In this document: positions 269 to 41,662 of the stretch, piece by piece
How positions within the stretch are numbered: the first letter of the stretch is position 1
Layout: every line of letters begins with the position of its first letter
Virus record (IMG/VR): IMGVR_UViG_3300010401_000017
Span: 1-43,311 of that record
Source: a virus
Reading direction: 5' to 3' (one strand)
Length of the DNA stretch: 43,311 bases
The notes under the pieces: generated by a model
The model's database searches: none
The model's input: only the letters and a program-made list of their open reading frames with translations
Told to the model about the DNA's origin: nothing
Position numbers and translations under genes: made by a program

Positions 269-439
269 TTATTTCTCCTTTTCACTCGAAAGTTCTTCTA
301 ACTCTACGCCATATATTCTGTTCATTAGATATCGATAGTTTTTTTCGAGATCATTAACTCTTTCGGTTATATCGCCGTGTGACTCAATCACATATTCCTG
401 TAACTGTTCAAGAGTCCACTTAGGTCTTATCATTTCCAT
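269..439 (-). CDS. Small coiled-coil-like hypothetical protein (56 aa)
   Basis: The ATG is preceded by ACGGAGGAGTGAG, a strong SD embedded in the last codons of the upstream repeat-protein gene, so translation is probably coupled. The protein begins MEMIRPKWTLEQLQEYVIES and continues with a charged helical stretch (residues about 20-55) ending in Glu/Lys-rich sequence. It looks like a short helical protein; its function is unknown. The ACACGGAGGA segment at 445-454 also resembles a CsrA-binding sequence. Confidence 0.65.
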   Translation of the reverse strand: MEMIRPKWTLEQLQEYVIESHGDITERVNDLEKNYRYLMNRIYGVELEELSSEKEK

Positions 440-440
440 C

Positions 441-1721
441 TCACTCCTCCGTGTTGATTAGGTCATAATCTTCCATACGATAAGATCCATACGAATATTT
501 TCCACTCATCATATCCCATCCTCTCACAAATACATCTCCTTCCATCTTCCCACGCAAGACGGGATGTGAAATATCGTTTAATGAAATATATTCAGGAACA
601 AATTTTTTACCATGCTTAGTCCTACACGGCTTAAACGGATCGAACTTTTTCTCTTGCTTCGGCAACTCAGATTCGGGGACGTTTTTTAAAAAGAGTTCAT
701 CCCGGCTTTCATTGGCTTTACACTTTCCATCCTTTGTGTATTCGCCATAAGAATCTTTTCCGTCTTTATTAGTAAATAATACAAGTATTGGATAACGCTC
801 ATCCCTCATATTTGTACTGATAACTCTCACTGATTCTTCGGTTCCCATTTCTTTCCTGCGAACCGGCTTAGACCAATCTATTTTAGGCTCTGGTTTAACT
901 ACTTTCTTCAATCCGGAAAGTTCAGTCAAACATTCTTCTCCGCTATTAGCGATCACTAAACAATATGTAGCTTCTTCCGGGCCAATTCTACTTATTATAG
1001 CTCTACCAAAAGTAGAGCACTCCACATAGTCGCCAACTTTGAACTCTGGAACAGCTTTTGGTTTCTTTATGAGTTTCTTTAGATCGGATGTATTAGGTAA
1101 TCCCGGAAATCCATAGTCGTAGAATACCTTTACTACAATCCCATCAAAGAATTTTGAGATGTAGGTATCTTCTCTAATTTCTCCTTTATTTCCATATTTA
1201 TCTATTACTCGATCTCCGACCTTAAACTCAATTTTCTTCTTTCGGAGTTTTGTTAAGCAACGAGTCTCTATAAGGTTAGATGTGATACATGCTGAGTCAA
1301 GCTTAACAATAGCAAGATCTTTATTTCGATAGTGGAAACTGTCTATAGACCCTTTACCAAAAGCAGTCAGTACGCGATCACCGACTTTGAACTCGGCCTT
1401 CTTCTTACGGAGTTTTTTTAGATCGGCTACGTCATACGGGTAAATCTTCATCAAAAAATCTTTATCCCTACAAACCATAGCGCAGCCATCTAAAATATCA
1501 ATTATTTTACCTTTGTAATTTTTATCGTCTATGACTCGATCTCCAACATTGAATACGACTGGCTTCTTGACGAGTTTCGTCAGCTTATGCTCTTTCATGC
1601 ACTCTTCTTTTTCTCGCTCATCAAACTTAACCATATAAAGTTCTTCATTCATATCTTTTACAACCGTTCCTTTACCGCCATAGCTTCCAACCACCCTATC
1701 GCCCACCTTGAAGTCAGACAT
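441..1721 (-). CDS. Multi-repeat SH3-like (KOW-type) protein with two C-terminal phage modules
   Basis: The 426-aa protein has a modular design. Five N-terminal repeats each open with a (F/E)KVGDRV-type motif (near residues 4, 57, 111, 165 and 227), followed by a Gly-rich turn, a second strand and a basic tail such as LTKLVKK or LKKLRKK. This is the look of small SH3-like or KOW beta-barrels. Two related modules follow, each starting DWSKPVRRK or DPFKPCRTKHGKK. The same C-terminal module occurs in the genes at 9935 and 10302, and an SH3-like unit recurs at the end of the gene at 14078. Its role is unknown; array-type SH3 proteins commonly bind proteins or nucleic acid. The start ATG follows an AGGAG-containing segment. 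Confidence 0.8.
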   Translation of the reverse strand: MSDFKVGDRVVGSYGGKGTVVKDMNEELYMVKFDEREKEECMKEHKLTKLVKKPVVFNVGDRVIDDKNYKGKIIDILDGCAMVCRDKDFLMKIYPYDVADLKKLRKKKAEFKVGDRVLTAFGKGSIDSFHYRNKDLAIVKLDSACITSNLIETRCLTKLRKKKIEFKVGDRVIDKYGNKGEIREDTYISKFFDGIVVKVFYDYGFPGLPNTSDLKKLIKKPKAVPEFKVGDYVECSTFGRAIISRIGPEEATYCLVIANSGEECLTELSGLKKVVKPEPKIDWSKPVRRKEMGTEESVRVISTNMRDERYPILVLFTNKDGKDSYGEYTKDGKCKANESRDELFLKNVPESELPKQEKKFDPFKPCRTKHGKKFVPEYISLNDISHPVLRGKMEGDVFVRGWDMMSGKYSYGSYRMEDYDLINTEE

Positions 1722-1732
1722 CGATTTCTCCT

Positions 1733-2053
1733 CTAGATATTTATGTATTGGCCTTTATAGTAAATCTGTTCTACTTTTTTTGCTCCTTCATTATCTGAAA
1801 AGGAAATATGACAACCAGTTTTCTCCTTATCGTAATCATATTTAACGAATATATTTAGATGATGGTCTTCAAGAATTTTATTTATCTCCACTAGCAAATC
1901 TTTTAGTTTTTTTACATCTACCGGAATTATCTCCATTTCAATTTCACGTATTTCTTCTTCTAGTTTCCATCCATATTGTCGTGTGCTTTTTTGACATTCC
2001 TTTAGAAACTTTAGTCGATCTTCTAGTTTCTTATTTTGTTCTTCGTCAGACAT
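1733..2053 (-). CDS. Coiled-coil plus alpha/beta hypothetical protein, paralogue family member
   Basis: An in-frame ATG exists upstream at 2077, but the start at 2053 is preferred. It follows ACGGAGAAAAAATCT, a good SD, and overlaps the previous stop by 8 bases. The protein (106 aa) begins MSDEEQNKKLEDRLKFLKE, a charged helix. A second part contains a segment like LLVEINKILEDHHLNIFVKYD. The arrangement and the EIEMEIIP pivot match the next gene upstream (EILKIERALIP) and the gene at 3554 (RIEEIEEELSFP), so I read them as paralogues. No function is recognised. Confidence 0.75.
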   Translation of the reverse strand: MSDEEQNKKLEDRLKFLKECQKSTRQYGWKLEEEIREIEMEIIPVDVKKLKDLLVEINKILEDHHLNIFVKYDYDKEKTGCHISFSDNEGAKKVEQIYYKGQYINI

Positions 2054-2360
2054 AGATTTTTTCTCCGTCATATGCAATATAAAACAGACGTCCTATCTGA
2101 TAGGTTCTTTCATCCGTAATAAAATATATTGTTAAATCATCAGTATCATCATGAGATATATTCATCTTATTTTCTTCGAGAAAATCATTTAATTCATTTA
2201 GTATTATCGTAAGTTTATTTATGTTTGTAGGGATGAGAGCACGCTCAATCTTTAAAATTTCATCACAAAGCACCCCTGTTTCTTTATGAAGATCGAAGTG
2301 CCTCTTCTGCAAGATTTTTAACCTTTCTTTTAATTTCGTTTCTTTATCTGAGTCAGTCAT
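2046..2360 (-). CDS. Coiled-coil plus alpha/beta hypothetical protein, paralogue family member
   Basis: This 104-aa protein has a charged N-terminal helix (KLKERLKILQKRHFDLHKE), a pivot IERALIPTNINKL, and a C-terminal segment with ILNELNDFLEENKMNISHD followed by short strands. It shares length and layout with the genes at 1733 and 3554. The last codons overlap the start of the downstream paralogue, suggesting tandem duplication and coupled translation. The function is unknown. Confidence 0.75.
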   Translation of the reverse strand: MTDSDKETKLKERLKILQKRHFDLHKETGVLCDEILKIERALIPTNINKLTIILNELNDFLEENKMNISHDDTDDLTIYFITDERTYQIGRLFYIAYDGEKIYV

Positions 2361-2370
2361 TTTTTATTCC

Positions 2371-2856
2371 TTACCATTGGTAATTATTGTCAATTATATA
2401 AACTTGAGTATGTCTACGTAACCAATCCGATTCTTTTGGAGGAAGAATATCCTTGTGTATACCTCTTATGAAAGCTCTCCAACAAAAGCTATCCGACATA
2501 CAACCACGATGTTCATCTGCCTGATTAAATCGATGCCATTCTTTAGGAATTAGAAACCCATGTTTGAACTCGGTTAAAGGAGAACCGGATACCCAAACAT
2601 ACATCGGTAAGTCCAATCTACACATATCAAATCGTTGTATTCCATTTACACGAGGAACAAAATCAGTATGCCATCCAGGAATACAGGGAAATTGTCTTGG
2701 CATTAACATATGAACCTTAATATCCCAGGTAAAATCATGAACATTATCGGGAAAGGTATCTAGTACTTCTTTAATATCAGGCATCAACTCGATTGTTTTT
2801 TCATATGATGCTTGATGAATTCCACAGTGTTGCTTACTCCAATCGATGTCGTTCAT
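2371..2856 (-). CDS. Possible 2OG-Fe(II) oxygenase-like phage protein
   Basis: The 161-aa protein contains MPRQFPCIPGWHTDFVPR (residues about 52-69). The H63-x-D65 pair is preceded by a Pro/Gly turn, as in the facial triad of 2-oxoglutarate/Fe(II) dioxygenases. His108 or His116 could supply the distal ligand, and an Arg about 15 residues later (FIRG) could bind the co-substrate. Related short phage proteins with a GWH(C/T)DF signature exist but lack a known role. The gene overlaps the following gene's ATG by 4 bases. The enzyme assignment is an inference from motifs; a non-enzymatic cupin-like fold is equally possible. Confidence 0.5.
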   Translation of the reverse strand: MNDIDWSKQHCGIHQASYEKTIELMPDIKEVLDTFPDNVHDFTWDIKVHMLMPRQFPCIPGWHTDFVPRVNGIQRFDMCRLDLPMYVWVSGSPLTEFKHGFLIPKEWHRFNQADEHRGCMSDSFCWRAFIRGIHKDILPPKESDWLRRHTQVYIIDNNYQW

Positions 2857-3209
2857 TTCTTATCCCGTATTGATTCCAAGTATTCTTCTTCTATTTGATA
2901 GACCAATTTCTCCAGTTCATTTTTGTCATGTTCATAATCTTCTTCTGGGCTGCAAGTTCCTATATCCGCAAGATGACATTCTGTTTCAGGTGTCATGATA
3001 TATTGCCCTCCTTTCCATCCTTCAAATGTCCTTTGTATACACCACGTCGCCATCTCTATCATATAACCTATTGCGACCCTATTATCATATTTCTGAAATG
3101 CTAGTTCATCATAGAAACCGCGATATGAATGAGGGTCACTAATTGCCACTGATGGAACAAAATTTGGATCAATATTTTTCAGTCTGTGGATAAGATGATC
3201 AAGTTTCAT
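2853..3209 (-). CDS. Conserved phage hypothetical protein (DPHSYRGFYDE family)
   Basis: The 118-aa protein carries AISDPHSYRGFYDELAF (residues about 23-39), later a TFEGWKGGQYIMTPET segment and a Glu-rich C-terminal helix. I recognise the pattern S/DPHSYRG..E(L/V)AF followed by GYKGG-like sequence from uncharacterised small proteins in enterobacterial phages. The function is unknown. It overlaps both neighbours by 4 bases, consistent with one operon. Confidence 0.7.
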   Translation of the reverse strand: MKLDHLIHRLKNIDPNFVPSVAISDPHSYRGFYDELAFQKYDNRVAIGYMIEMATWCIQRTFEGWKGGQYIMTPETECHLADIGTCSPEEDYEHDKNELEKLVYQIEEEYLESIRDKK

Positions 3210-3433
3210 TTCTTCTCCTCTTCATTCTCATATTTCTCCATCATCTTTTCTATGGCATCATCTTCTTTAAGGATAAGAGAAAGTATGTTGTCAAATCTCT
3301 TGCAAGACTCTTTTGGAAATACGGTCTTTTTTAAAACATTTCCGTTAGATAGCATATTCCGACTATAGAGAATGATAGTACTTATCTCGCGAAGGAAAGC
3401 ATATTTCTTGGCATTAGAATATTTTTTTTTCAT
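3206..3433 (-). CDS. Small basic helical hypothetical protein (75 aa)
   Basis: The ATG follows AGGAAGTCAA. The N-terminus is Lys-rich (MKKKYSNAKKYAFL), then a helical stretch with ILYSRNML and an acidic end (EKYENEEEKK). There is no recognised domain. Its end overlaps the start of the 118-aa gene by 4 bases, which supports it as a real gene in the minus-strand operon. Confidence 0.6.
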   Translation of the reverse strand: MKKKYSNAKKYAFLREISTIILYSRNMLSNGNVLKKTVFPKESCKRFDNILSLILKEDDAIEKMMEKYENEEEKK

Positions 3434-3470
3434 TTGACTTCCTCTTTACTCAATCTCTCCTTAATAGTTA

Positions 3471-3557
3471 CTATGTATTAGTTTCCCATCCCTGTAGAAA
3501 CTCTATTCCGTGCTTCTTTAATTGCTTACTCTCAAAATATTGTTTTATATTTCTCAT
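3471..3557 (-). CDS. Very small hypothetical protein (28 aa)
   Basis: The ATG overlaps the TGA of the upstream 122-aa gene as ATGA, a common coupling signal in this genome. The product starts MRNIKQYFESKQLKKHG and ends GWETNT. No function is recognised. The overlap is the main support; its size makes it uncertain. Confidence 0.4.
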   Translation of the reverse strand: MRNIKQYFESKQLKKHGIEFLQGWETNT

Positions 3558-3922
3558 TTTTCATACTCGATATCTGATATACGATGGGAATTATCCTTTG
3601 AATTTGTTAGATCTATGAAATTCCAATCAGAGTCATGAGTGGAGTCATATCCTACTTTTAAGTAATATCCATTTTCCGAAAGAATCCCGTTTATCTGGTT
3701 CATAACCTCTTTCATTTTTATCTTTTCAGGAAAACTTAACTCCTCTTCAATCTCTTCTATCCTTCTCTTAAGTATTTTAATCCTCTCAAGTAGCTTTACA
3801 TTTTCAACATCAAGATCAATCTTTACTTTCTCTAATTTCTTTGTATTACAATTAGACTCTTTAATGCGTGAGTCCAGTTCATCTTGATATAATTTTAGCT
3901 CTTTCTTTAGCTCGTCATTCAT
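3554..3922 (-). CDS. Coiled-coil plus alpha/beta hypothetical protein, paralogue family member
   Basis: The 122-aa protein has a long N-terminal charged coiled coil (residues 1-70, ending ILKRRIEEIEEELSFPEK). A compact C-terminus follows with VMNQINGILSENGYYLKVGYD. Layout and pivot match the genes at 1733 and 2046. The segment ILSENGYYL also resembles VILSRNGCIL near the end of the adjacent upstream gene. The function is unknown. Confidence 0.75.
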   Translation of the reverse strand: MNDELKKELKLYQDELDSRIKESNCNTKKLEKVKIDLDVENVKLLERIKILKRRIEEIEEELSFPEKIKMKEVMNQINGILSENGYYLKVGYDSTHDSDWNFIDLTNSKDNSHRISDIEYEK

Positions 3923-4365
3923 TCTTCTATCCTGTGTTTTATATTCATCTTAAGAAGATTATTAACTTTCTCGTTTTTTCTAAATCTAACAAAAATCCCA
4001 AGTCCAGAACCATCCAATATACAGCCGTTTCTACTTAGAATTACTTCTATATTATTTATCATGTGAGTAAGTTCAATATCTATCACTCTCTTAGTAAACA
4101 TTTTCACAAAATATTCTGGTGATTTTGATATACCAGGATCTTTCATTAACGAATCAATACTTTTCTTTGGCATTGAATGTTTCTCAAACTTATCCATATT
4201 TTCTGAATACTGCAAAATATAAGAGGGAGATTCCGCATGATTATAAGCGACACATACTTCTCCTTCTCCGCATGTCGTATCCCACCTCAAATTGTGCTTA
4301 TGGAAATATCTTTCTAGCCTATTGGCTACCGCTTTAAGCCTCTGTATGTTTTCTTCACTCTCCAT
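3919..4365 (-). CDS. Hypothetical protein (148 aa), first gene behind the 4471-4500 promoter
   Basis: The ATG follows TTAGGAGATTAGAAA, a strong SD. The protein begins MESEENIQRLKAVANRLERYF, has a central part with WDTTCGEGEVCVAYNHAE, and ends with a helix-strand unit (MINNIEVILSRNGCIL) similar to the C-terminal unit of the coiled-coil family next to it. No known domain is recognised. The 105-base leader upstream holds a small GCCG-GTGA-CGGC hairpin with a GNRA loop directly before the SD, which could modulate translation. Confidence 0.65.
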   Translation of the reverse strand: MESEENIQRLKAVANRLERYFHKHNLRWDTTCGEGEVCVAYNHAESPSYILQYSENMDKFEKHSMPKKSIDSLMKDPGISKSPEYFVKMFTKRVIDIELTHMINNIEVILSRNGCILDGSGLGIFVRFRKNEKVNNLLKMNIKHRIEE

Positions 4366-4470
4366 TTTCTAATCTCCTAATTGATAGGCCGTCACCGGCG
4401 CATTCATCTAAAACTAGAGTCTATGACTATAATTTTAGTTGGTACCCATGAACACACAGGCGACAGATTT

Positions 4471-4500
4471 ATATTAAAACATCTTTTAACCTAAAGTCAA
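4471..4500 (-). promoter_or_regulatory. Minus-strand promoter with embedded operator palindrome
   Basis: On the minus strand, TTGACT (4500-4495) and TAATAT (4476-4471) are separated by 18 bases. Within and after the spacer lies GTTAAAA-GATG-TTTTAAT (4490-4473), nearly identical to the operators at 6591 and 9315. The element overlaps the 3' end of csrA and would drive the leftward genes beginning at 4365. A repressor bound here would block RNA polymerase. The 68-aa HTH protein is the likely ligand (inference). Confidence 0.65.
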
Positions 4501-4677
4501 ATTTTTTTCTTGTTGTATTCTAAAATAAACTTCTTCTCTGTATATATTTATATCTCGGGGCGCATCAAATCCAATTCTAACTTGATGTCCTTTTATACCT
4601 AGAACTCTTACTTTTATTACTTCTTCATTTTTTAGTAAGTAAATAAGTTCGCCCACTCTTCTAGTAAGAATTAACAT
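4486..4677 (-). CDS. csrA: Phage-encoded CsrA/RsmA RNA-binding regulator
   Basis: The 63-aa protein starts [10 protein letters not shown], the signature of CsrA, and retains [29 protein letters not shown] and the key RNA-binding residues L4 and R47 (equivalent to R44 of E. coli). The beta1-beta2 loop carries about three extra residues ([10 protein letters not shown]), and the usual His before the key Arg is Tyr46. CsrA dimers bind GGA motifs in mRNA leaders and block or alter translation. I chose the ATG at 4677, which has GGAG six bases upstream, over the ATG 12 bases earlier. It overlaps the preceding gene by 17 bases and its stop lies inside the operator at 4473-4490. It could redirect host metabolism or time phage genes. 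Confidence 0.93.
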
Positions 4678-4873
4678 AGTAATCTCCATTTTCAGTTAAG
4701 TAATTGTTTAACAACACTTCCACTTTCTTGTACATATACATCTCCTTCAACTTCTCAATTGCAGCGCTTATATGCCGCAATTCTGATTTAGAAGCCGGAC
4801 AACGTGGATGATTCTTTAAGTACCATTCCATCGCTGACACCATTGTCATAGCTTCTTCTGTAGAGATATCCAT
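4661..4873 (-). CDS. Hypothetical protein upstream of csrA (70 aa)
   Basis: The ATG follows AAGGAGGGTTAT, one of the strongest ribosome sites here. The product is largely helical ([17 protein letters not shown], then [23 protein letters not shown]). No domain is recognised. It lies 14 bases after the annealing-protein gene and overlaps csrA by 17 bases, so the three are probably co-expressed. Confidence 0.7.
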
Positions 4874-4887
4874 ATAACCCTCCTTGG

Positions 4888-5637
4888 TTAAAGAAATGCC
4901 TCAGTATCTAATTCAATTTGAACTTTCTTGCTGTCTTTAAGCTTAATCACTTCTGCTAGAAAGTCAGGATCGTTCTTACAGATTCTCTGCGTATCTTTGA
5001 ATATTATTTTCAAATCATCCAAAGTGATACAGAGACTAATCGCATCCCTCACAGCTTCTTTCTCATCGTCAGTAAGCATCCGAGTTTCTACTTCTAGATG
5101 CTTTGGAGCAGCTTGAGTATCTCGAATTGCGCTCGAATAGGAAGTTGGAGAACTAACCACTCTTTCGGCAGATGGGATTGTTTCTATTTCTGTTTCATCT
5201 AAAACACCTAAACCCGCTATACTTAAAGTTGCTCGGCGTTTAGCTTTTGTCTCAGCTTTCATTAAAGCATTGGCAAGCGCATCACCCGACAGTCCTTTTA
5301 TAGAGACCGCACCGCTTGCAATATCAGCTCTCCCATCGGCTGTATTCGCGTGCGCAATAACAATATAGATATCATTAACAATCTTAGTTTCAATCTCTGA
5401 GATACTTATTTTTCGCAAACTTCTAAGTTGTTCTGTTGCATCTTTACGCGCATACAATGTTTCTTTTCCTTGCAACTTAATATAGTCAAAAGGGCGTGTG
5501 ACAGGATTAAGACCAAGCGCATTACATACATCTAAGTAATAAGCAGTTTTCTCGGCTGCTGTTAGTTTGCTTAAGTCACCTTGAATAACCACCTTATCGA
5601 AAGCTTCTTGATTGTATGCTTGCATTTCATTGCTCAT
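4888..5637 (-). CDS. Probable phage single-strand annealing recombinase (RecT/Red-beta-like)
   Basis: The 249-aa protein has two strongly patterned blocks. LGLNPVTRPFDYIKLQGK (residues 41-58) is followed by LYARKDATEQLR. Later LANALMKAETKAKRRATL precedes GLGVLDETEIE. This combination marks a widespread phage family placed by many annotators among recombination or ssDNA-annealing proteins. The order (LGL-P, then a Tyr/Arg-rich segment, then an Ala/Lys helix) resembles RecT, but I assign that from memory of the pattern rather than from an alignment. The C-terminal 80 residues look like a flexible linker plus a helical tail. The start is supported by ACAGGAGAAAAACT. Confidence 0.6.
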   Translation of the reverse strand: MSNEMQAYNQEAFDKVVIQGDLSKLTAAEKTAYYLDVCNALGLNPVTRPFDYIKLQGKETLYARKDATEQLRSLRKISISEIETKIVNDIYIVIAHANTADGRADIASGAVSIKGLSGDALANALMKAETKAKRRATLSIAGLGVLDETEIETIPSAERVVSSPTSYSSAIRDTQAAPKHLEVETRMLTDDEKEAVRDAISLCITLDDLKIIFKDTQRICKNDPDFLAEVIKLKDSKKVQIELDTEAFL

Positions 5638-5867
5638 AGTTTTTCTCCTGTTGGAATTGCAGATTTAAGTGTGTTCAATCTTTTAATATCTATATCATGT
5701 ATTAAATGACAGTTATGGAACTCTCTTTCTAATAAAATACTTTCTTTCAAATAATCACATAATTCTAACAAATAATTTTTCCAGGTCACATGTTTTACTT
5801 TCTCAAGATTATCATGATCTAGATCTAATATTTCTTTAACTTTAATAAAATCTGGTGATTTTTTCAT
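5634..5867 (-). CDS. Hypothetical protein (77 aa)
   Basis: The ATG follows AAAGGGAGAATTGT. The product is a mostly helical, charged protein (VKEILDLDHDNLEKVKHV, then LLELCDYLKESILLERE). It overlaps the next gene by 4 bases and the previous 42-aa gene by 4 bases. No family is recognised. Its position directly upstream of the annealing protein suggests an accessory role in recombination or replication, but nothing in the sequence proves it. Confidence 0.65.
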   Translation of the reverse strand: MKKSPDFIKVKEILDLDHDNLEKVKHVTWKNYLLELCDYLKESILLEREFHNCHLIHDIDIKRLNTLKSAIPTGEKL

Positions 5868-5992
5868 ACAATTCTCCCTTTTTGAAATGTGAACCCTCTT
5901 AGTTTAAGAAAATAACGACTTACTATTCCAACCCGTCTTCTTCCCAGCATTATCAAAAACAACTTTTCTTCACTACCCATATAGTCCTTCAT
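5864..5992 (-). CDS. Small basic hypothetical protein (42 aa)
   Basis: ATGA overlaps join it to both neighbours (ATG 5992 with TGA 5989-5991; its TGA with the ATG at 5867). The product, MKDYMGSEEKLFLIMLGRRR and a basic tail with YFLKLRGFTFQKGR, is strongly cationic in its second half. The double overlap makes it likely to be translated. The function is unknown; a membrane-surface or nucleic-acid-binding peptide would fit the charge. Confidence 0.5.
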   Translation of the reverse strand: MKDYMGSEEKLFLIMLGRRRVGIVSRYFLKLRGFTFQKGRIV

Positions 5993-6183
5993 GTCAACGC
6001 TCCTTTTAAAATATCTGAAAGCTCAGTATGACCTCTCAGTGTTGCGAACTTAATCGCTAACTCGATATACTCATTAAATCTCGTAGGTTTTCTGTCTAGA
6101 ATCATTTCTGCTGTTTCGATAAAACCATTCTCAGCACACATGACTAGAGCGCACCCCAGATTTTCTCTTTCACATTCTTTCAT
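5989..6183 (-). CDS. Small ankyrin-like repeat protein (64 aa)
   Basis: Two helix-turn-helix units are visible: ALVMCAENGFIETAEMILDR (residues about 12-31) and ELAIKFATLRGHTELSDIL (residues 41-59). Both carry the A..(G)..E.(A/S).(I)L spacing of ankyrin repeats. Two repeats are few for a stable ankyrin domain, so it may pack on a partner. It overlaps neighbours by 4 bases on each side. Ankyrin proteins mediate protein binding; a host target is possible but unproven. Confidence 0.6.
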   Translation of the reverse strand: MKECERENLGCALVMCAENGFIETAEMILDRKPTRFNEYIELAIKFATLRGHTELSDILKGALT

Positions 6184-6575
6184 AAAGATCTCTGTGAGTC
6201 GTACTGTTGTTCTAAAATTTCAGGATGTCTTTGTACCATCACCGGCCAATTCTCAACGACTTCTTTATCTAAAAGATTCTGTATTTTATCTTTATAGAAA
6301 TTAGCACCAGTCTTTTTCACTTCCTCGAGTAAATCAAACGCGGTATCTTTATCTTGATGAATAAGATATTGAGCCATTCGATATATCAAAGAGTTTTCAA
6401 AGTTATTGCCAACTTCCGGCGCTTCTCGTATAAAATCAATTTGGTTATCAACATTATCATCGATAAGCAAATAACCGGTTAAAATATCTTTATCTTCGGT
6501 ATTCATATCCTGATAATCATAAATTCCTTTTTCAAATAAGTAATGCACGCAATCTGATAGTGAAGTATCTTTCAT
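6180..6575 (-). CDS. First gene of the leftward arm, hypothetical (131 aa)
   Basis: The frame extends upstream to 6707, but the start at 6575 is preferred because AAAGGAGATTAAA lies directly before it and the upstream part covers the operator. The acidic protein (MKDTSLSDCVHYLFEKGIYD, later IDFIREAPEVGNN) is probably helical. The stretch MAQYLIHQDKDTAFDLLEE has a helical-repeat feel, as in the downstream ankyrin-like protein. The function is unknown. Confidence 0.65.
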   Translation of the reverse strand: MKDTSLSDCVHYLFEKGIYDYQDMNTEDKDILTGYLLIDDNVDNQIDFIREAPEVGNNFENSLIYRMAQYLIHQDKDTAFDLLEEVKKTGANFYKDKIQNLLDKEVVENWPVMVQRHPEILEQQYDSQRSL

Positions 6576-6590
6576 TTTAATCTCCTTTAA

Positions 6591-6608
6591 GTTAAAATAT
6601 GTTTTAAC
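6591..6608. promoter_or_regulatory. Operator palindrome before leftward early operon
   Basis: GTTAAAA-TATG-TTTTAAC is a perfect 7+7 palindrome with a 4-base centre. It lies immediately upstream of the SD of the gene starting at 6575, where a bound protein would block the leftward promoter or elongation. It matches 9315-9332 at 17 of 18 positions. I could not identify a convincing -35/-10 pair for the leftward promoter, although one must lie between here and about 6700. Confidence 0.7.
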
Positions 6609-6742
6609 CTGCTGCCCATAAAAAATCAGAATCGCTTCTGATGTAACCAATGTAACTCGGATTACACATGCTGTCTGTAAGCTATATCTGAAAGTGTTGT
6701 AAGCCAAACGCTCGGTTGTTTATTTCTTGAACAACTGAAATT

Positions 6743-6771
6743 TTAACAAAAAACATGTTTTACTCTATAAA
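6743..6771 (+). promoter_or_regulatory. Rightward promoter with variant operator
   Basis: TTAACA (6743-6748) and TATAAA (6766-6771) are separated by 17 bases. The palindrome AAAACATGTTTT (6750-6761) sits in the spacer. It shares the AAAA-N4-TTTT core of the other operators but has CATG at the centre and lacks the outer GTT/AAC arms. It is placed to control the HTH gene starting at 6784, consistent with autoregulation. A 6-base inverted repeat, GTTGTT/AACAAC, lies just upstream (6715-6735). Confidence 0.65.
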
Positions 6772-6783
6772 TATAGGCAATAT

Positions 6784-6990
6784 ATGAAAAAAAGCAATAT
6801 TAAACGACTTCGAGAAGAAATTAAGTTGACACAAGAGCAGTTTGCAAAAGAAATTGGTGTTTGCAAAATCAGTGTTTCTTATTACGAGTCTGGAAAAGTC
6901 ACCCCATCGGCACCTGTAATGTCGAGAATTATTAAAGTAGCTAAACGCTATAGAGTAACTATTACCCTCGATGAACTCCTTGGAAAATAG
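6784..6990 (+). CDS. Cro/CI-family HTH transcriptional regulator (68 aa)
   Basis: A single HTH_3/XRE domain spans the protein. KRLREEIKLTQEQFAKEIG leads into the recognition helix CKISVSYYESGKVTPSAP, and the C-terminus ends LDELLGK. At 68 aa it has no dimerisation or cleavage domain, so it is Cro-sized rather than a LexA-like CI. It is the first gene of the rightward arm, 12 bases after the TATAAA box. It is the obvious candidate to bind the GTTAAAA/TTTTAAC operators at 4473, 6591, 6750, 9022 and 9315. Confidence 0.85.
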   Translation: MKKSNIKRLREEIKLTQEQFAKEIGVCKISVSYYESGKVTPSAPVMSRIIKVAKRYRVTITLDELLGK

Positions 6991-6993
6991 CAT

Positions 6994-7953
6994 ATGAGAG
7001 AATGGTTTAAACACGATATCTATACCACAACTGACCCCAAAATAATCATCATTATGAGTGAGTTTGGGGGTATAGGATATGCCTTTTTCTGGCGGATTGT
7101 AGAGATGCTTTATGCATCCGACCGGGGTGATTTAGTCATTGATCAGACACTTATATTGTCTCTGGCTACTCAACTGAAAACCACCACTGAACACCTCAAA
7201 GATATCCTTAAACGCTTTATGGATCTGGATATTTTTACCCAGAATATTGTCAGCATGAGCCCTACAAAAGGAGATAAAATGAACGATGAAAGTGGGTCAA
7301 AAAGTGGGTCAAAACCCCCTAAAATGATCCAAAATGATCCGGATCATTTGGATCAAAAAGCGGATCATTTTCTGCAAAATGATCCGATAGTTTTGACCTC
7401 AAAAAGGGTCAAAGAAATTGTTATTGAAAAGACCAACAAATGGCGTCAGTACAAGGAAAATCAGGTTTTTCATGGGAAGGCAGGCGGTAGGCCAATTGAA
7501 CCCATGAAAGTTGGGTCAAAAGGGTACGAAAGCCAAGAAGTAGATTTAAAAGATAATAATAAAGATCTTAGATCTAAACAACTGAAGAGTAATATTATAA
7601 AAATAAGATCTAAAAAACATTGGTCAAATTTTGAAATTTTTTGGAAATTTTACCCGAAGCGGGTGGCCAAACTCATCGCAGCAAAAGTTTGGTCACGAAA
7701 GCATCTCGACGACAAGTTAGAAATTATTTTGGACGATCTCAAAAAACGAAGCTCGGATGAAAGCTGGCAAGCCGGGTACATTCCCAACCCTTCGAATTAT
7801 CTCAACAACGAACGTTGGACAGACGAACCGCAAAAACCAATTCGACCGAAAAAAAAATTAGCCGATGAACTTTTTGAAAAAAACTTCAAAATCGCTTTTG
7901 GTGAAAAACCGCAATTTCAAAATGGGCGAGTAATCACAGCGGAGGAAGCATGA
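6994..7953 (+). CDS. Phage replication initiator (lambda O-like organisation)
   Basis: The 319-aa protein has three parts. An N-terminal winged-helix-like domain (residues 1-90, WFKHDIYTTTDPKI and FFWRIVEMLYASD) resembles the N-terminal domain of Lin1244-type (DUF4373-like) initiators. A low-complexity middle (residues 100-140) is encoded by a dense repeat cluster. A C-terminal domain from about 205 carries the usual FEIFWKFYPKRVAK, IPNPSNYLNNERW and DE ending of phage O-like replication proteins. It should bind its own iterons and recruit the helicase loader encoded next. It overlaps that gene by 4 bases. Confidence 0.8.
   Translation: MREWFKHDIYTTTDPKIIIIMSEFGGIGYAFFWRIVEMLYASDRGDLVIDQTLILSLATQLKTTTEHLKDILKRFMDLDIFTQNIVSMSPTKGDKMNDESGSKSGSKPPKMIQNDPDHLDQKADHFLQNDPIVLTSKRVKEIVIEKTNKWRQYKENQVFHGKAGGRPIEPMKVGSKGYESQEVDLKDNNKDLRSKQLKSNIIKIRSKKHWSNFEIFWKFYPKRVAKLIAAKVWSRKHLDDKLEIILDDLKKRSSDESWQAGYIPNPSNYLNNERWTDEPQKPIRPKKKLADELFEKNFKIAFGEKPQFQNGRVITAEEA
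7291..7403. repeat. Iteron cluster inside the initiator gene: probable replication origin
   Basis: Two tandem 12-mers AGTGGGTCAAAA (7291-7302, 7303-7314) are followed by AAAATGATCC at 7321, 7331 and 7376. Inverted copies GGATCATTT occur at 7341 and 7362. Further GGGTCAAA copies occur near 7397 and 7513. The DNA turns very AT-rich at about 7540-7640. Repeats in the middle of the initiator gene followed by an AT-rich stretch are the lambda ori design. The encoded protein is low-complexity here (SGSKSGSK, then IQNDPDH and LQNDP), as expected if DNA function constrains it. Confidence 0.75.
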
Positions 7954-9934: not shown

Positions 9935-10309
9935 ATGAATGAATACACGTTTCTGGTTGAGGAAGGATCATATGCTGATAAATGGTTAGTTGGATGTATC
10001 AGAGAGTGTCATCCGGGTATTTCACATTATTCTGTCGTAAAGAAAGAAAAAGAAATGCCGAAGTTCGATATCAGAAAGCCGATGAGGACGAAAGAAGGAA
10101 AGAAGAAAGCTATATTAGTCTACGATAACTTCTATTGCGTTAATTCTCCTGAGAGCAAATTTCTTGTAGTAATTAAAGGTCATTTCAATGATTTAAATGA
10201 TGCTTCAGTTATCTTTACGGAGAGTAGCACTCCGGATATCGAAACTTTTTCAAATGAATGGGAGCTAGAAAACATTCCCGAAGACGAAATGGAGGAAGAA
10301 AATGTTTGA
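9935..10309 (+). CDS. Protein with 'DxxKPxRTxxGKK' phage module (124 aa)
   Basis: The second half begins PKFDIRKPMRTKEGKKKA, then strands and ENIPEDE. This matches the two C-terminal modules of the repeat protein at 441 and both modules of the next gene. Such modules (first strand around KP.(R/T)T..G+K, end N(V/I)PE) are common in uncharacterised phage and prophage proteins. The N-terminal 40 residues are unrelated. It overlaps the next gene by 8 bases. Confidence 0.7.
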   Translation: MNEYTFLVEEGSYADKWLVGCIRECHPGISHYSVVKKEKEMPKFDIRKPMRTKEGKKKAILVYDNFYCVNSPESKFLVVIKGHFNDLNDASVIFTESSTPDIETFSNEWELENIPEDEMEEENV

Positions 10310-10718
10310 TCCAAAAAAACCGTTTACGACTAGAGATGGCAGAAAAGTAGAGATTATTTATGAAGGTGAATTCTCGCGTCCTACTGGTAGCTTCATTAAT
10401 GAATGCTATGCGGGATTTGTACTTTCAACTGACAAAGGAACTAGAGTTTTATGTTCTTGGGATAATGAAGGAAAGATATTCTCTGAACACTTTTCGCAAG
10501 CTGATCTAATTAACACTAACACCTTCGATATCTATGGCCGCTGTCGGACTACATGCGGAAAGAAAGCGAGGCTGATCTGTAGCGATCGCAAGTTATCTTC
10601 AGCACCCGAGTTAACTTTTATTTTTTTGATGGAAGATGGAAATGGAGATGAGTTTACAAATTCCTTTAATATATTTGGAACATCTTCACTTAATAACTAT
10701 ACGCTGGAGAACTATTGA
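10302..10718 (+). CDS. Tandem 'DxxKPxRTxxGKK' module protein (138 aa)
   Basis: Two modules are visible: FDPKKPFTTRDGRKVEIIYE (residues 2-21) and FDIYGRCRTTCGKKARLICS (residues about 77-96). Each is followed by beta-strand-like sequence. It is a paralogue of the preceding gene and of the C-terminus of the large minus-strand repeat protein. The start overlaps the upstream gene and uses AGGAAGAAA. The function is unknown. Confidence 0.75.
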   Translation: MFDPKKPFTTRDGRKVEIIYEGEFSRPTGSFINECYAGFVLSTDKGTRVLCSWDNEGKIFSEHFSQADLINTNTFDIYGRCRTTCGKKARLICSDRKLSSAPELTFIFLMEDGNGDEFTNSFNIFGTSSLNNYTLENY

Positions 10719-10921
10719 TGAGTGAAGAAAAAGAAAGACGAGAAGAAAGAATAATAAGGATTAAACAAAAAAATAATAAAGCTAAAAAGATAAACAATAT
10801 TTTTAAATATATTCTTGATGAGATTGATGATATTCATAAGAAGTTAGGTCATATTGGAAGTAATGTTAATTCGCTATACTCAATAATAGAAGAACATACT
10901 AAACATGAGAAATTATTATGA
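10718..10921 (+). CDS. Small charged coiled-coil protein (67 aa)
   Basis: I use the ATG at 10718 (GGAGA upstream) rather than the TTG three bases earlier. It starts MSEEKERREERIIRIKQKNN and remains Lys/Glu-rich, with an amphipathic helix ILDEIDDIHKKLGHIGSNVN. It overlaps both neighbours by 4 bases or less. No function is recognised. Confidence 0.6.
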   Translation: MSEEKERREERIIRIKQKNNKAKKINNIFKYILDEIDDIHKKLGHIGSNVNSLYSIIEEHTKHEKLL

Positions 10922-11319
10922 GTGAAGATTATTATAGATGTAGAAATCTTATCCATCTAAAGAAATTCTTAGAAAATGAGAATAAGACAATTTTAATGGG
11001 AATAAAAATATTTAATAAGTCGTCTTCTGATAAAACTTCTGAAAGAATTTGTAAAAAGATAGTTGATGGAAATAAAAATATTATTTGCGAGATTCAGTTA
11101 GAGTTAAGACGCTTAAAAGTAAATCTCAGGTTTAGAATGCATGAAGCTATAGCGGCTGGTTTTAAGTCTCATCCAGAAAAGGTAATGAAGGATTTTGATA
11201 TTTCCTACAAAGAAGGAATTCCTCAATCGCTTGGCGATCAGTGGTGGTTTATAGACTGCGAAAATCTTCCTGAAAAGTTACCTGATTTTTTGGAGTTTAT
11301 GGAATATGAGGGGACATAA
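10918..11319 (+). CDS. Hypothetical protein (133 aa)
   Basis: It is joined to the previous gene by an ATGA overlap and to the next by TAATG. The N-terminal part is helical and basic (CRNLIHLKKFLENENK). The C-terminal part has SLGDQWWFIDCENLPEKLPDF. No known domain is recognised. Confidence 0.65.
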   Translation: MSEDYYRCRNLIHLKKFLENENKTILMGIKIFNKSSSDKTSERICKKIVDGNKNIICEIQLELRRLKVNLRFRMHEAIAAGFKSHPEKVMKDFDISYKEGIPQSLGDQWWFIDCENLPEKLPDFLEFMEYEGT

Positions 11320-13893: not shown

Positions 13894-14084
13894 CACCACA
13901 AACATCAATACTAATCCTTAGCTTGTGCGTTATAGGGCTTTCGATAGCAATTTATTTCATCAATGTTAAAATCAAAAGTCTCGATCTTGCGATAAGAAGA
14001 GCTCAAATGTTTGTGATAATCTCTTCTCCAGCTCTCAAGAAAGAATTCGATGAGTTTATTAAGGGAGAAGGGAAGCAATGCTAG
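13890..14084 (+). CDS. Single-span membrane protein (64 aa)
   Basis: The N-terminal hydrophobic segment SILILSLCVIGLSIAIYFI (residues 6-24) is followed by a charged helix (NVKIKSLDLAIRRAQ) and KKEFDEFIKGEGKQC. The N-out or N-in orientation cannot be told. It overlaps the next membrane protein gene. Confidence 0.6.
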   Translation: MTPQTSILILSLCVIGLSIAIYFINVKIKSLDLAIRRAQMFVIISSPALKKEFDEFIKGEGKQC

Positions 14085-14731
14085 AAACTATCTGCTTTAC
14101 AATAATTGGAATTGTGTTTTTTTGTATGGGGTTTATCGTATTCCATGCATCAATACAAACAGAAGGGGATAGGAACGATCTACTGGATAAGATAGAGAAA
14201 GAGAAAAATACCGAAGAAGAAGAGGATAAGCCTAAACTTACAAAAGATGAACTCGATAAAATATTTTCCGAAGAATCTTATATACATATTTTTAGTTATT
14301 TAGGAAATCACGAATTCTGTAAGATAGTCGAGAACAAGATGCATGTATTAAGAATACGAGATGATTGTTCAATACATTATAGAATAGAAGACATTGATAA
14401 AAATACTTTAAGAAGAATAAGTAAAAACGTACTGAAAATTGAGTTCTGTTTAAAATCTCATTATGATCTCTGGTTTAAAGAGTATACAGAAAAATTATAT
14501 GTCGGAGATAGGGTAAAGATAATGGTACCTTCAGTATATTCGAAGTATTCGTTCGTAAAGAACTTCTTGGAAAATAATCTAATACCACACGAACACTTAT
14601 CAGAAGGAAAAGTAGTAAACATTATAGACAAAGATACTTTCCCTACGGTTATTGTTAAGTTTGATAACTGGGCGGATAACATCGGAATGAAATACTCTTG
14701 TTTGGAGAAAATAATAAATGAGGATGTATAA
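14078..14731 (+). CDS. Membrane-anchored protein with C-terminal SH3-like domain (217 aa)
   Basis: An N-terminal helix ICFTIIGIVFFCMGFIVFHA anchors it. A charged linker (EKEKNTEEEEDKPK) leads to a middle domain. The last 65 residues start LYVGDRVKIMV and include a LSEGKVVNIID and VIVKFDNW unit, the same VGDRV...G.V..I pattern as the repeats at 441-1721. It thus links the two arms by domain sharing. Its function is unknown. Confidence 0.65.
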   Translation: MLETICFTIIGIVFFCMGFIVFHASIQTEGDRNDLLDKIEKEKNTEEEEDKPKLTKDELDKIFSEESYIHIFSYLGNHEFCKIVENKMHVLRIRDDCSIHYRIEDIDKNTLRRISKNVLKIEFCLKSHYDLWFKEYTEKLYVGDRVKIMVPSVYSKYSFVKNFLENNLIPHEHLSEGKVVNIIDKDTFPTVIVKFDNWADNIGMKYSCLEKIINEDV

Positions 14732-17321: not shown

Positions 17322-18323
17322 ATGGCTAATACACGGATACATGAAGAGGCGCTCGCCCCAAGCATTACTAACACTATGTGCTTGGTTGGTGAAGATCCTA
17401 ATGTCAATACCAACACTACGTATAGATTCCCTCTTACTCAGATAGTAGATGGAACGACAGTAGCAGCTACTAGTGGTGTATACAAAGTAGTTACGACCGG
17501 TATTGTTGATGGAACCAGTATTGGAGTGACTTCAAATCTTGCGCATGTAAACACTTCTAATATAGTAGATGGTACAACCATCGGTGTTACGACAAATGTA
17601 GCTCATGTAAATACAGCAAATATTCTTGATGGTACCACTTTAGGTGCCACCGGTAGTTTAGCTCACGTTAATACATCTGCGATCGTTGATGGTACTACAT
17701 TAGCATTGACAGGAAATGTCGCTCATGTTGCAACCGCAGCCATCTTGGATGGCACGACTCTTTCAGCCACATCCAATTTAGCTCATGTGAATGCGTCCGC
17801 AATCGCCGACGGTACCACTATTACTGCTTCTGGAAATCTTCTAACCTCAAATAAAATATTCAAAGGGGGGGGCTTAGACTCTACGGGAACGGCTACCCAA
17901 TCGATTGCAGATAATACATCCGCTTATGTGGATTGGACTCACACAGATTTCGATATAGGTTCGGTATATACTGACTTGTCAGCTGACCGACTTCTTATTC
18001 CCGCAACAGGTTGGTACAGAATAAATGCATTTTTTAGCGCCAAACTTACGGGAGGAGCCGCCGGAACCTTTGGAGCTCTTATACAGAATTCTGGTACAAC
18101 TATTTATACATTTGGATATTATCTTACCGCTCTTACCCCAGTGGGTACTCTGTCTGTAATGCCATCAGCTTCAACTATTTTCTATTTGACATCAGGAACT
18201 GATCTTAAGGTTGCCGTCACAAATACCACTGGGGCGAGCGTGACAATTACAACGAGTGGCGCAGTCACTATTTTTCCTGCCCTTAAAATGGGCTCATTCC
18301 AGATAGAATATTTAGGAACTTAA
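17322..18323 (+). CDS. Fibre-like virion protein with 20-residue repeats and jelly-roll C-terminus
   Basis: The 333-aa protein has about seven tandem 20-residue repeats (residues 41-180) with consensus I(V/L)DGTT(I/L)..T.N.AHVNT. After a Gly-rich hinge (KGGGLD) comes a C1q/TNF-like beta domain (YVDWTHTDFDIG, then ATGWYRINAFF) ending QIEYLGT. The tail fibre at 37058 ends almost identically (QVEYLGS), and its C-terminal domain has the same GWYR segment. A repeat shaft with a trimeric jelly-roll tip suits a receptor-binding or decorating fibre. Its place upstream of terminase suggests a head- or neck-bound fibre. Confidence 0.75.
   Translation: MANTRIHEEALAPSITNTMCLVGEDPNVNTNTTYRFPLTQIVDGTTVAATSGVYKVVTTGIVDGTSIGVTSNLAHVNTSNIVDGTTIGVTTNVAHVNTANILDGTTLGATGSLAHVNTSAIVDGTTLALTGNVAHVATAAILDGTTLSATSNLAHVNASAIADGTTITASGNLLTSNKIFKGGGLDSTGTATQSIADNTSAYVDWTHTDFDIGSVYTDLSADRLLIPATGWYRINAFFSAKLTGGAAGTFGALIQNSGTTIYTFGYYLTALTPVGTLSVMPSASTIFYLTSGTDLKVAVTNTTGASVTITTSGAVTIFPALKMGSFQIEYLGT
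17442..17861 (+). repeat. 60-bp tandem repeat array coding the fibre shaft
   Basis: Units begin every 60 bases at 17442, 17502, 17562, 17622, 17682, 17742 and 17802 (the last incomplete). Each starts with AT(A/T/C) followed by codons for (V/L)DGTT. Third positions vary between units, so the protein rather than the DNA is conserved. A run of eight G (17865-17872) follows directly. Confidence 0.85.
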
Positions 18324-18324
18324 T

Positions 18325-19095
18325 ATGGCAGATATACAGATGCATGACTTCCCTCCGGGAAGTACTTTATTTTCGGATACAATAGTTCCATGTGAAAGTG
18401 GAAGTACCCCAACGGCCTATGAAACACAGAAGTTTTCATTGGGACAGTTGATTGACAATGTCACCATTACTCAAGATGGAAGTTTTAAGTATCAAGTAGA
18501 GACGGCAGCTATTATTGATGGAACGACAATACAAGAAACCGGCGGCCAAGCTCACGTTAATACTACTGATATCGTCGATGGCACGACTTTATCGGTTACT
18601 TCTAATATAGCAAGTGTTTTGGCCTCTGGAATTGTTGACGGCTCTACAACTATTGCATCTTCAAATAAGGTTGTCGTAAATACAGGTATTACAGATGGCA
18701 CTATTCCCCTTATTGGAACTAACAAGTCAACGGATCTTCTTAAGCCCTACTATTCCATAACTCCTAATTGTACCACGCTTCAGTTAGGCGGAGGGGCAAG
18801 CTCTACTTATAACGTAGATCTCTTTAACGGGTTTAGGTTCGGTAATATATTAGTGATGTTTGGTGAAATAAACGGAAATATTAGTGGGTCGCCTACTTCT
18901 CCATTTATCTTTAGTGTCGATTTTCCCACGATTAATACCGCCCCTCTCGTTTATGTTGGAGGAAATATACTTCCCGACTCAACTTTTATTGATGTGGGAC
19001 GCCAACCTTTCCAATCTTATTTTACGATAACTGCAGGATCTGTTATTAGTGGTACATGGGGCGCAAGTTTAATCTTATGGGCATACTTACCTTAG
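18325..19095 (+). CDS. Second fibre-like protein with the same shaft repeats
   Basis: The 256-aa protein has three to four repeats of the same 20-residue type (IIDGTTIQETGGQAHVNTT, IVDGTTLSVTSN, IVDGSTT). A different C-terminal beta domain then includes VDLFNGFRFGNILVMFGEI, ending LILWAYLP. It appears to be a partial duplicate of the preceding gene with an exchanged tip. It starts one base after the preceding stop. A role in host recognition or capsid decoration is inferred. Confidence 0.7.
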   Translation: MADIQMHDFPPGSTLFSDTIVPCESGSTPTAYETQKFSLGQLIDNVTITQDGSFKYQVETAAIIDGTTIQETGGQAHVNTTDIVDGTTLSVTSNIASVLASGIVDGSTTIASSNKVVVNTGITDGTIPLIGTNKSTDLLKPYYSITPNCTTLQLGGGASSTYNVDLFNGFRFGNILVMFGEINGNISGSPTSPFIFSVDFPTINTAPLVYVGGNILPDSTFIDVGRQPFQSYFTITAGSVISGTWGASLILWAYLP

Positions 19096-37057: not shown

Positions 37058-38473
37058 ATGACAGATAGAGTTGCGGTATACCCAAGTGAAATCATCTATA
37101 GCTCTGACATGCTTCAAACTAATCGCTATCCTTATATTGGGGTGGGATGTTTAACAGATGCCATCCTAGGTTCTACTACTCAGATAAATGGATTTCCCTG
37201 TACAGCCCAAACCCCAACCCCCAACTTGAGTGTTAATGTGGGAGCAGGTGAGATTTACATACAACAAGCCGTAGATACCACAGCTTATCCTACTTCTGAT
37301 GGCGGTTTACCTGCTGATCCAAAACTCATCATGAAGCAGGGAATCTATCCCACGCTTACTAACTTTCCGTTAGCCGCTCCTGGAACAGTGGGGTATTCAA
37401 TTAACTATTTGATTGAAGTTGAATTTGATGAGCTCGATACAAACATCGTTTCGCGGCCTTATTATAATTCCTCTAATCCTTCATCTCCAGTATTTAATAA
37501 CGTAGCTACGGTTAGAAAAGATACTGCTGTTGTTACTGCAAAAGCCGGAGTTGCTGCAATTACGGGAACTCAGGTTACACCTGCACCAGATGCTGGAAAT
37601 ATAGGGATGTGGGTGGTTACTGTTGCTAATGGACAGACACAAATTACTTCTGGTGATATCAATCGCTATACAAATGCGCCTTTCATTATCGATAAACTGA
37701 AAGATAAGATAAGCCAAGAAGTGGCGGACAGGTTATATGAGAAAAGAAATTTCTATGTAGATAGCGGAACGGCTAATACTTATGTACTTACTCTTTCTTC
37801 GTTGTATGGAACCGCTCCCGCATACTATAATGGAATGAAAGGAAACTTCTTTGCGTTGGTTGGGAATTCTGGTGGTGCATCTACCGTTAACTTTGACGGA
37901 GTTGGTGCTGTAGCATTAGTTACTCCACAAAATACCGCTCTTCCCGCAAATGTTATTGATTCAGGTGACTATATAGAATCAGTTTATAAAGCATCTATAT
38001 CTAAGTTTGTGATGACTAATATCAAACCTAATGTAGATTCTGGAGTTTCTCTTATAGGCTTCTCAGCCAATGAAGTTTTTTCTCTAACAGGAGGAGTGGG
38101 AGAAAAGATACTTAGCTTTACATTGGTTTCTCAGACTTTTGATATATGGAATTCAGTAGATACGAGAATACAACCAACCTTGGCGGGATGGTACAGAGTA
38201 ACCGTTTCTATTAATGCTCTCACTGATACAGAAGCAGTCTTCTATCCTGTTAAGAATGGTAGTACAAGTGATTTTACAATATGTCAAACCACAGCAGCAG
38301 CTACTACTGTAGAAAGTCTAGTTACAGGATCGAACCTAATATATTTTGATGGAACTGATTGTGTGGAGATCTATGTTATTTCAGATCTTTCAGCAGGCGT
38401 TACTGTTTTAAAGCAACCAACTGGAATAGCGATTGATAGTACCTTTATACAGGTAGAGTATCTAGGCTCTTAG
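37058..38473 (+). CDS. Tail fibre protein with C1q/TNF-like tip
   Basis: The 471-aa protein has an N-terminal part with a conserved-looking attachment region (AVYPSEIIYSSDMLQTNRYP, residues 5-24), a PYYNSS(N)-containing middle, and a shaft-like part (NTYVLTLSSLYGTAPAYYNG). From about residue 340 a beta domain contains GWYRVTVSINALTD and ends FIQVEYLGS, nearly the same as in the fibre-like protein at 17322. It is the last gene of the rightward arm and overlaps the end of lysozyme by 4 bases tail to tail. Confidence 0.82.
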   Translation: MTDRVAVYPSEIIYSSDMLQTNRYPYIGVGCLTDAILGSTTQINGFPCTAQTPTPNLSVNVGAGEIYIQQAVDTTAYPTSDGGLPADPKLIMKQGIYPTLTNFPLAAPGTVGYSINYLIEVEFDELDTNIVSRPYYNSSNPSSPVFNNVATVRKDTAVVTAKAGVAAITGTQVTPAPDAGNIGMWVVTVANGQTQITSGDINRYTNAPFIIDKLKDKISQEVADRLYEKRNFYVDSGTANTYVLTLSSLYGTAPAYYNGMKGNFFALVGNSGGASTVNFDGVGAVALVTPQNTALPANVIDSGDYIESVYKASISKFVMTNIKPNVDSGVSLIGFSANEVFSLTGGVGEKILSFTLVSQTFDIWNSVDTRIQPTLAGWYRVTVSINALTDTEAVFYPVKNGSTSDFTICQTTAAATTVESLVTGSNLIYFDGTDCVEIYVISDLSAGVTVLKQPTGIAIDSTFIQVEYLGS

Positions 38474-38985
38474 TTCTCCCAAATCTTTGCCAGCTCAACC
38501 GGTGTCAAATACCGGTTGCGCCGCATCATTTCGGATAGTTCTTTTGCTCTCTTCCCAACATCTATATACCACTTACTTCTTAACATCTCGTGAGAAGCTT
38601 CTTCCCATCTAGCGTTATCTATATCGAGAATAAAGTTTCTGAATCCTATAAATGCTCTTTCTCCAATATTGAAAACCATATTGATGATGATATCTTTTCT
38701 GACATCACTTAAGAACTTGAACCATCCGTATTTCTGAAGAGACTTTTCTATTTGTTGAATATCATTATTGAGAAGATAATAGGCAGATTCCTTGGATATC
38801 TTGAGTGTTTCTAGATTCTCTAGTTGAGTTGGTGTGATGGCGAGCGTGCTTAACTCACCTTGTGAAAAACCACGATGCTCTATATTTCTTCCTATCCCAA
38901 TTGTCCAAATTCCTTTTGTGTCTTTGTATGCTTGTAATCGTAAACCTTCATGCCTTGCGAGTTGAGGAATGAGTTTTTCGTACAT
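38470..38985 (-). CDS. T4-type lysozyme (GH24 endolysin)
   Basis: The 171-aa protein has the lysozyme triad in order: RHEG (E13), YKDTKGIWTIGIG (D22, T28), matching E11, D20 and T26 of T4 lysozyme. Further segments AYYLLNNDIQQIEKSL, NMVFNIGERAFIGF and EMMRRNRYL fit GH24. It cleaves the glycan strand of peptidoglycan for lysis. No signal peptide is visible, so a holin should release it. The SD region is UUACAAGGAC, similar to a CsrA site. Its C-terminal codons include a hairpin (38497-38517). Confidence 0.93.
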   Translation of the reverse strand: MYEKLIPQLARHEGLRLQAYKDTKGIWTIGIGRNIEHRGFSQGELSTLAITPTQLENLETLKISKESAYYLLNNDIQQIEKSLQKYGWFKFLSDVRKDIIINMVFNIGERAFIGFRNFILDIDNARWEEASHEMLRSKWYIDVGKRAKELSEMMRRNRYLTPVELAKIWEN

Positions 38986-38990
38986 ATCTA

Positions 38991-39000
38991 GTCCTTGTAA
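38991..39000 (-). promoter_or_regulatory. CsrA-site-like SD of the lysozyme gene
   Basis: On the minus strand the sequence is UUACAAGGAC, six bases before AUG. It agrees with UACARGGA, the core of the published E. coli CsrA SELEX consensus. The AAGGA is also the ribosome site, so CsrA binding would compete with initiation. No hairpin displaying the GGA is obvious, which lowers the likelihood. Confidence 0.4.
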
Positions 39001-39002
39001 AT

Positions 39003-39179
39003 TTAAACTTGACTAAATATACCATCAAACATTCTATTAATCACATCTTGTGCCCAAATACATAGTAGAATCTCTCGATTATATTCATGAAGTCGATGGA
39101 GATTTTGGGGAAATGGAATAGCGTACTTTCTCGCATGTTCTCGCGCTTTTTGGATCTCTGTGAAATTATATTTTTCCAT
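39003..39179 (-). CDS. Small hypothetical protein (58 aa)
   Basis: It begins MEKYNFTEIQKAREHARKYA, then IPFPQNLHRLHEYNREILL, and ends WAQDVINRMFDGIFSQV. GGAG lies 11 bases before the ATG. It lies just upstream of lysozyme with 17 bases between them, and it is probably on the same message. No function is recognised. Confidence 0.6.
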   Translation of the reverse strand: MEKYNFTEIQKAREHARKYAIPFPQNLHRLHEYNREILLCIWAQDVINRMFDGIFSQV

Positions 39180-39194
39180 TCTACTTAATCTCCA

Positions 39195-39536: not shown

Positions 39537-39537
39537 A

Positions 39538-39714: not shown

Positions 39715-39721
39715 TTATGGG

Positions 39722-41230: not shown

Positions 41231-41305
41231 AACAAGCTCCTAAATTAAAAACCGCCAAGGTTGCGCGACATCTTTTCAGATACTAAGCGTGACGGTTATA
41301 TTGAG

Positions 41306-41661: not shown

Positions 41662-41662
41662 A

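Follow-up and report, generated by a model that had tools for sequence, protein, structure and literature searches.

The window analysed here is the whole of the 43,311-nucleotide stretch held in IMG/VR as virus record IMGVR_UViG_3300010401_000017. Because bases 1-123 are an exact direct repeat of 43189-43311, the record probably covers the whole genome (~43.2 kb), which has been opened at an arbitrary position. In that case, the genes on the minus strand at 38470-43255 and 269-7014 form a single leftward block, which includes the gene for a 426-aa protein (Table 1), here called the chain protein. The initial annotation gave this gene no strand; it lies on the minus strand. The nearest terminase among named phages is that of Roseobacter phage CRP-901 (49%), followed by those of Paracoccus phage Pkon1 and Aeromonas phage vB_AsaM-56 (both 42%). 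Assignment of a host by means of the terminase was dropped, as the nearest bacterial contig is only 38% identical, and a promoter scan was discarded since it gave fewer sites than were found in shuffled sequences.

Table 1. Positions of the chain protein, its units and modules, the other carriers in the window and the related proteins in other viral contigs.
Feature	Position	Strand	Remarks
Window (IMGVR_UViG_3300010401_000017)	1-43,311
Chain protein, 426 aa: five predicted KOW/Tudor-type barrels and two KP modules	441..1721	-
Barrel unit 1, aa 3-54, DFKVGDRV...TKLVKK	1560..1715	-	AlphaFold pLDDT ~70-79
Barrel unit 2, aa 56-108, FNVGDRV...KKLRKK	1398..1556	-	low-confidence model
Barrel unit 3, aa 109-163, FKVGDRV...TKLRKK	1233..1397	-	low-confidence model
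Barrel unit 4, aa 164-222, FKVGDRV...KKLIKK	1056..1232	-	low-confidence model
Barrel unit 5, aa 225-277, FKVGDYV...KKVVKP	891..1049	-	five predicted strands; pLDDT ~82-85
KP module 1, aa 279-357, most conserved part	651..887	-	pLDDT 87-95 over most
KP module 2, aa 358-426, divergent, motif FDPFKPCRTKHGKK	444..650	-	weak profile match
CsrA homologue, phage-encoded	4486-4689	-	Pfam E 5.7e-20
124-aa acidic protein, one weak KP module (~aa 42-118)	9935..10309	+
138-aa protein, two KP modules (aa 1-73, 74-138)	10302..10718	+
217-aa protein, N-terminal hydrophobic segment and C-terminal VGDRV barrel unit (~14498-14722)	14078..14731	+
L003 barrel chain with zinc finger of the Lar restriction-alleviation type	9995-11017	+	Pfam PF14354, E 6.5e-12
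L300 chain ORF, four barrels, ~99 extra residues and two KP modules	1006-2646

The barrel part of the chain consists of five tandem units of 52 to 59 aa, each of which starts with F(K/N)VGD(R/Y)V and ends in a lysine-rich linker (for example, LKKLRKK). Five VGDRV-type barrels had been described in this protein; all five were recovered, although VGDRV is exact in only four and the fifth reads VGDYV. Among the window proteins, VGD.V occurs only in the chain (five times) and in the protein encoded at 14078 (once). A profile built from the four-unit protein of another phage (L003) and its single-unit neighbour, containing no window sequences, found five domains in the chain (E = 1.5e-13), the next window protein scoring 0.16. 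The repetition was also apparent in the DNA of the gene, where a 17-nt stretch occurs five times at a spacing of 159 to 183 nt and a 50-nt linker repeat shows 70 to 80% identity.

A sixth barrel had been placed at 14078, fused to a membrane anchor. This unit matched the narrow L003 profile weakly (0.22) and a wider profile, from which it had been excluded, at 5.9e-5, whereas shuffling this protein 500 times gave 0.13 at best. The unit is thus supported, while the hydrophobic segment that precedes it is a predicted membrane anchor, as read from the sequence only.

The core of the KP module, KPVxTRDGRKxRI...PIVAL...DG...DLxNxPE, is present in module 1 of the chain and in both modules encoded at 10302 but is weak in chain module 2 and at 9935. 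A profile built from 29 other viral contigs confirmed two copies in the protein encoded at 10302 (full E 1.8e-17). It also found the two copies claimed for the chain (full E 3.2e-11), of which module 1 is strong (2.6e-9) and module 2 weak (domain E 0.37; pairwise z of 6 to 7 against the 9935 and 10302 copies). The single copy proposed at 9935 gave one weak match (0.0036), mostly over the KP motif. Its assignment is helped by pairwise z-scores of 6.6 to 9.0 against other window copies and by the counterpart of this gene in a related phage (L300; blastp 8e-4), which carries ITKPVRNKKGQR. The profiles of the modules, searched against the window and other phages, recovered both barrels and KP copies, bearing out the view that two domain families have been copied, fused and distributed among genes of both transcription directions. 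The barrel and KP profiles show no similarity to each other, and the possibility that KP module and barrel are one domain was rejected on these grounds.

The KP module is a widespread phage domain without a name, usually present once per genome. It has no family in Pfam or NCBIfam, but 18 of the 29 module sequences matched PHROG 4466 (function unknown). Proteins like those of PHROG 4466 normally comprise a single module in ~110 to 140 aa, and across viral contigs the module was found fused to different partner sequences. The window copies match the module profile; unlike the norm, the module is here doubled, fused and present in five copies. Five copies in one genome are unusual, since 20 of 22 KP-carrying viral records had one match each, although only the 10302 copies were scored in the window by this search, for which the remaining ones are too diverged, and divergent copies elsewhere could be missed. 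Two matches were found in G010, and in G015 a single module is split in two by a stop. No barrel units were detected at E < 0.01 among the 22 records. In contig L136, three KP genes lie near each other (1499-3823, minus strand), flanked by ORFs that are repeated almost identically, a pattern like that of a duplicated cassette.

The whole chain was modelled with AlphaFold, using an alignment that covered KP module 1 only; confidence is high for most of this module and for barrel 5, intermediate for barrel 1 and low for barrels 2 to 4. The predicted barrels, confidently modelled only in units 1 and 5, are of the KOW/Tudor-type SH3-like class, having a small five-stranded barrel with VGD.V in the first strand and G..V in the second. 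When the chain model was compared with solved structures by Foldseek, seven of the eight matches at E < 0.001 were chains of RNA polymerase II elongation complexes (E 1.2e-5 to 4.6e-4). These complexes contain Spt5/DSIF and, judging from the entries, the matched chains are presumably Spt5. The rmsd of these matches is 24 to 29 Å; the likeness of the barrels is therefore local and the overall arrangement is not shared. Tudor domains followed, among them PHF19 (TM 0.79 by target length, 2.5 Å), a match of the whole-chain model that is not tied to a particular barrel or module. Against viral models, the best matches were mostly uncharacterised phage proteins, one being annotated as ribosomal protein L21e. 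The unit profile, searched against the sequences of solved structures, matched mostly SH3-like barrels (L21e, L24, NusG, PcrA and SMN Tudor), each weakly and many of them related to nucleic acids or transcription. Profile and Foldseek searches thus agree with the SH3-like character proposed in the initial annotation and specify it as KOW/Tudor. A Pfam scan of the chain gave no family above threshold.

In the models, the four to five strands of KP module 1 and of both 10302 modules follow one another in the same order, although a KP-only model gave no significant Foldseek match among solved structures. The predicted structures of the copies are thus not unrelated: strand order, compared without superposition, agrees where confidence allows, units 2 to 4 and the second KP modules being poorly modelled.

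The fusion of barrels to KP modules is a real and rare arrangement. No relatives of the chain were found in annotated phages and plasmids (tblastn) or in bacterial and archaeal genomes, and those in viral contigs are few: L300, L002/L003 and, as a more distant relative, L086 (four units in 496 aa). The L300 contig is syntenic with the window (replication protein 65%, lysozyme 73%, TerS 49%, CsrA 45% and the 6180 gene 62% identical). Its chain ORF lies at the corresponding point of the leftward block and, as in the window, combines barrels with two KP modules. It differs in having four barrels, which are diverged, and in the extra residues that separate these from the KP modules. Between the two phages, KP module 1 together with its exit linker (PESELPK.EKKFDP) is 60% identical (52/87 columns), with a pairwise z of 41 to 44 for the module. 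In contrast, barrel-to-barrel z ranges from below 0 to 13, so that the barrels are hardly alignable and show no consistent one-to-one pairing. KP module 1 is therefore constrained, whereas change in the barrel array is fast. No one-to-one orthology of barrels across phages emerged from pairwise scores or from a small tree, these domains being short. Counterparts of the 10302 and 14078 genes were not seen in the 12-kb right-arm stretch of L300 examined.

L002 and L003 carry one and the same protein, in which four tandem units are homologous to those of the window chain and joined by KKLVKK linkers (E 5e-15). Its C-terminus holds the Lar-type zinc finger in place of KP modules, and a single-barrel gene precedes the chain. 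This uncultured phage is of a different type, the portal and terminase of L003 differing from those of the window phage. The C-terminal head is best read as exchangeable, being a KP pair in the window and L300 and a Lar zinc finger in L003. On the minus strand of L085, a 208-kb phage contig, eight adjacent small genes (3257-5072) each encode a barrel start of the (V/D/S)GD type.

In the window, L003 and L300 alike, the barrel part is basic, with a pI of 9.1, 9.5 and 9.4, respectively; barrel unit 5 of the chain is acidic. Together with the fold class, this basic character suggests multivalent binding of nucleic acid, perhaps at the transcription machinery. The best explanation, which is put forward tentatively, is that the barrels form a basic array that would bind DNA or RNA at several points, possibly at transcribing RNA polymerase. 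KP module 1 would be a constrained head making a specific contact, probably with protein. In the other operon, the KP-only proteins and the barrel protein with the putative membrane anchor would be paralogues that carry the modules of the chain. What has been found is a rare fusion of known kinds of domain. As a rare family whose four or five barrels diverge fast and whose C-terminal heads vary, such phage proteins would offer a compact model of how phages build multivalent nucleic-acid or polymerase binders. The KP module, spread across many phages with no named function, gains its first structural and genomic context.

Among known phage proteins, T4 MotB, an early protein, offers a parallel. 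It has a predicted N-terminal KOW domain and a C-terminal OB-fold, binds DNA and alters H-NS-dependent repression; its C-terminal domain is common to the neighbouring paralogue MotB.1, whose N-terminus differs (PMC7827196). Like the chain, MotB is an accessory protein made by a phage, is basic (pI 9.2) and has a predicted barrel of the KOW type; in both, the C-terminal part is kept and the N-terminal part changes. Unlike the chain, it has one KOW barrel rather than five, and an OB-fold rather than a KP module. The barrel and KP profiles gave no sequence match to MotB; thus, the chain may work like MotB but is not MotB.

The reuse of domains had initially been taken to indicate binding to a common host target. 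As stated, this is not upheld. The barrel and KP families lack profile similarity and so do not amount to one shared binder; the KP module occurs generally in phages, mostly as a single copy; and the pI of the right-arm carriers (4.8 to 5.4), compared with 9.1 for the barrel chain, argues against one identical ligand. The KP head and the separate carriers may nevertheless share a partner. The acidity of these carriers and the spread of the KP module make simple domain reuse a serious rival: small domains of phages are readily duplicated and fused, and in each of the two operons the copies could have drifted to unrelated partners. This is a real possibility, though less likely than not. It fits with the occurrence of the module, in differing fusions, in unrelated viral contigs, with copying in other phages (the eight single-barrel genes of L085 and the three KP genes of L136) and with the presence in the operon of the chain of another duplicated family, the coiled-coil genes at 1733 and 2046. 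Retention of both the fusion and the right-arm KP gene in L300, as well as the unusual number of KP copies, is less easily accommodated. Confidence in the explanations overlaps because domain reuse and nucleic-acid binding are not mutually exclusive.

KOW, Tudor and SH3 barrels can also be protein-only binders and the ligand is therefore not fixed by the fold. The barrels might thus be a protein-binding scaffold, each SH3/Tudor-like unit gripping a short peptide within a single protein of host or phage origin. Sequences that vary as fast as these are expected of a host-facing interface. In addition, the unit profile matched PcrA and UvrD-type Tudor over most of the unit, which shares their pattern VGD.V...G.G.V...L.KL. 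The C-terminal Tudor domains of PcrA and UvrD bind RNA polymerase (PMC8318588, PMC5397179), and several units might by analogy provide avidity for such a grip. However, the PcrA matches are individually non-significant (E 0.03 to 0.05 for PcrA and UvrD-type Tudor), and PcrA and UvrD are helicases whereas the chain is a tandem array, in which a Pfam scan found no helicase motor family. The basic array with its lysine-rich linkers, common to three phages, favours nucleic acid, and the protein-binding scaffold is considered unlikely.

The eukaryotic elongation factor Spt5 is the best-known case of a multi-KOW string. Spt5/NusG factors resemble the chain in their string of KOW barrels and gave the best whole-model Foldseek matches. 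The chain could be a multi-KOW transcription or nucleoid factor of Spt5-like layout and separate origin, in which the barrels turn over fast from phage to phage, both in number and in sequence, while the head is kept or swapped. If so, one barrel array serves different heads. This reading is improbable. In contrast to Spt5/NusG factors, in which an NGN domain precedes the KOW domains, the chain gave no NGN or other transcription-factor domain in a Pfam scan up to E = 1, which also speaks against the best explanation; no polymerase-binding part was identified in it. A role in counter-defence, with the chain as an anti-restriction or decoy protein whose C-terminal head sets the defence target, is suggested by the Lar-type finger that replaces the KP modules in L003 and by the fast divergence of the barrels but is very improbable, as PADLOC gave no match to known anti-phage defence proteins, no direct link to any defence system was found and a Lar-like zinc finger in a phage does not necessarily target restriction.

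The coiled-coil-like family adjoining the chain gene (1733-2077 and 2046-2360, minus strand) has further members in L300 (555-1106 and 3336-3683), where the CsrA homologue is also retained at the matching place (5838-6038). The family of the hydrophobic protein encoded at 42665-43255 (minus strand) occurs as two adjacent copies in the relative phage (L309, 2917-3690 and 3694-4389). Two neighbouring tail-fibre-like genes (17322-19095, plus strand) contain tandem VDGTTL...AHVNTS repeats, and in the relative phage the repeats of each gene match the counterpart of the other as well.
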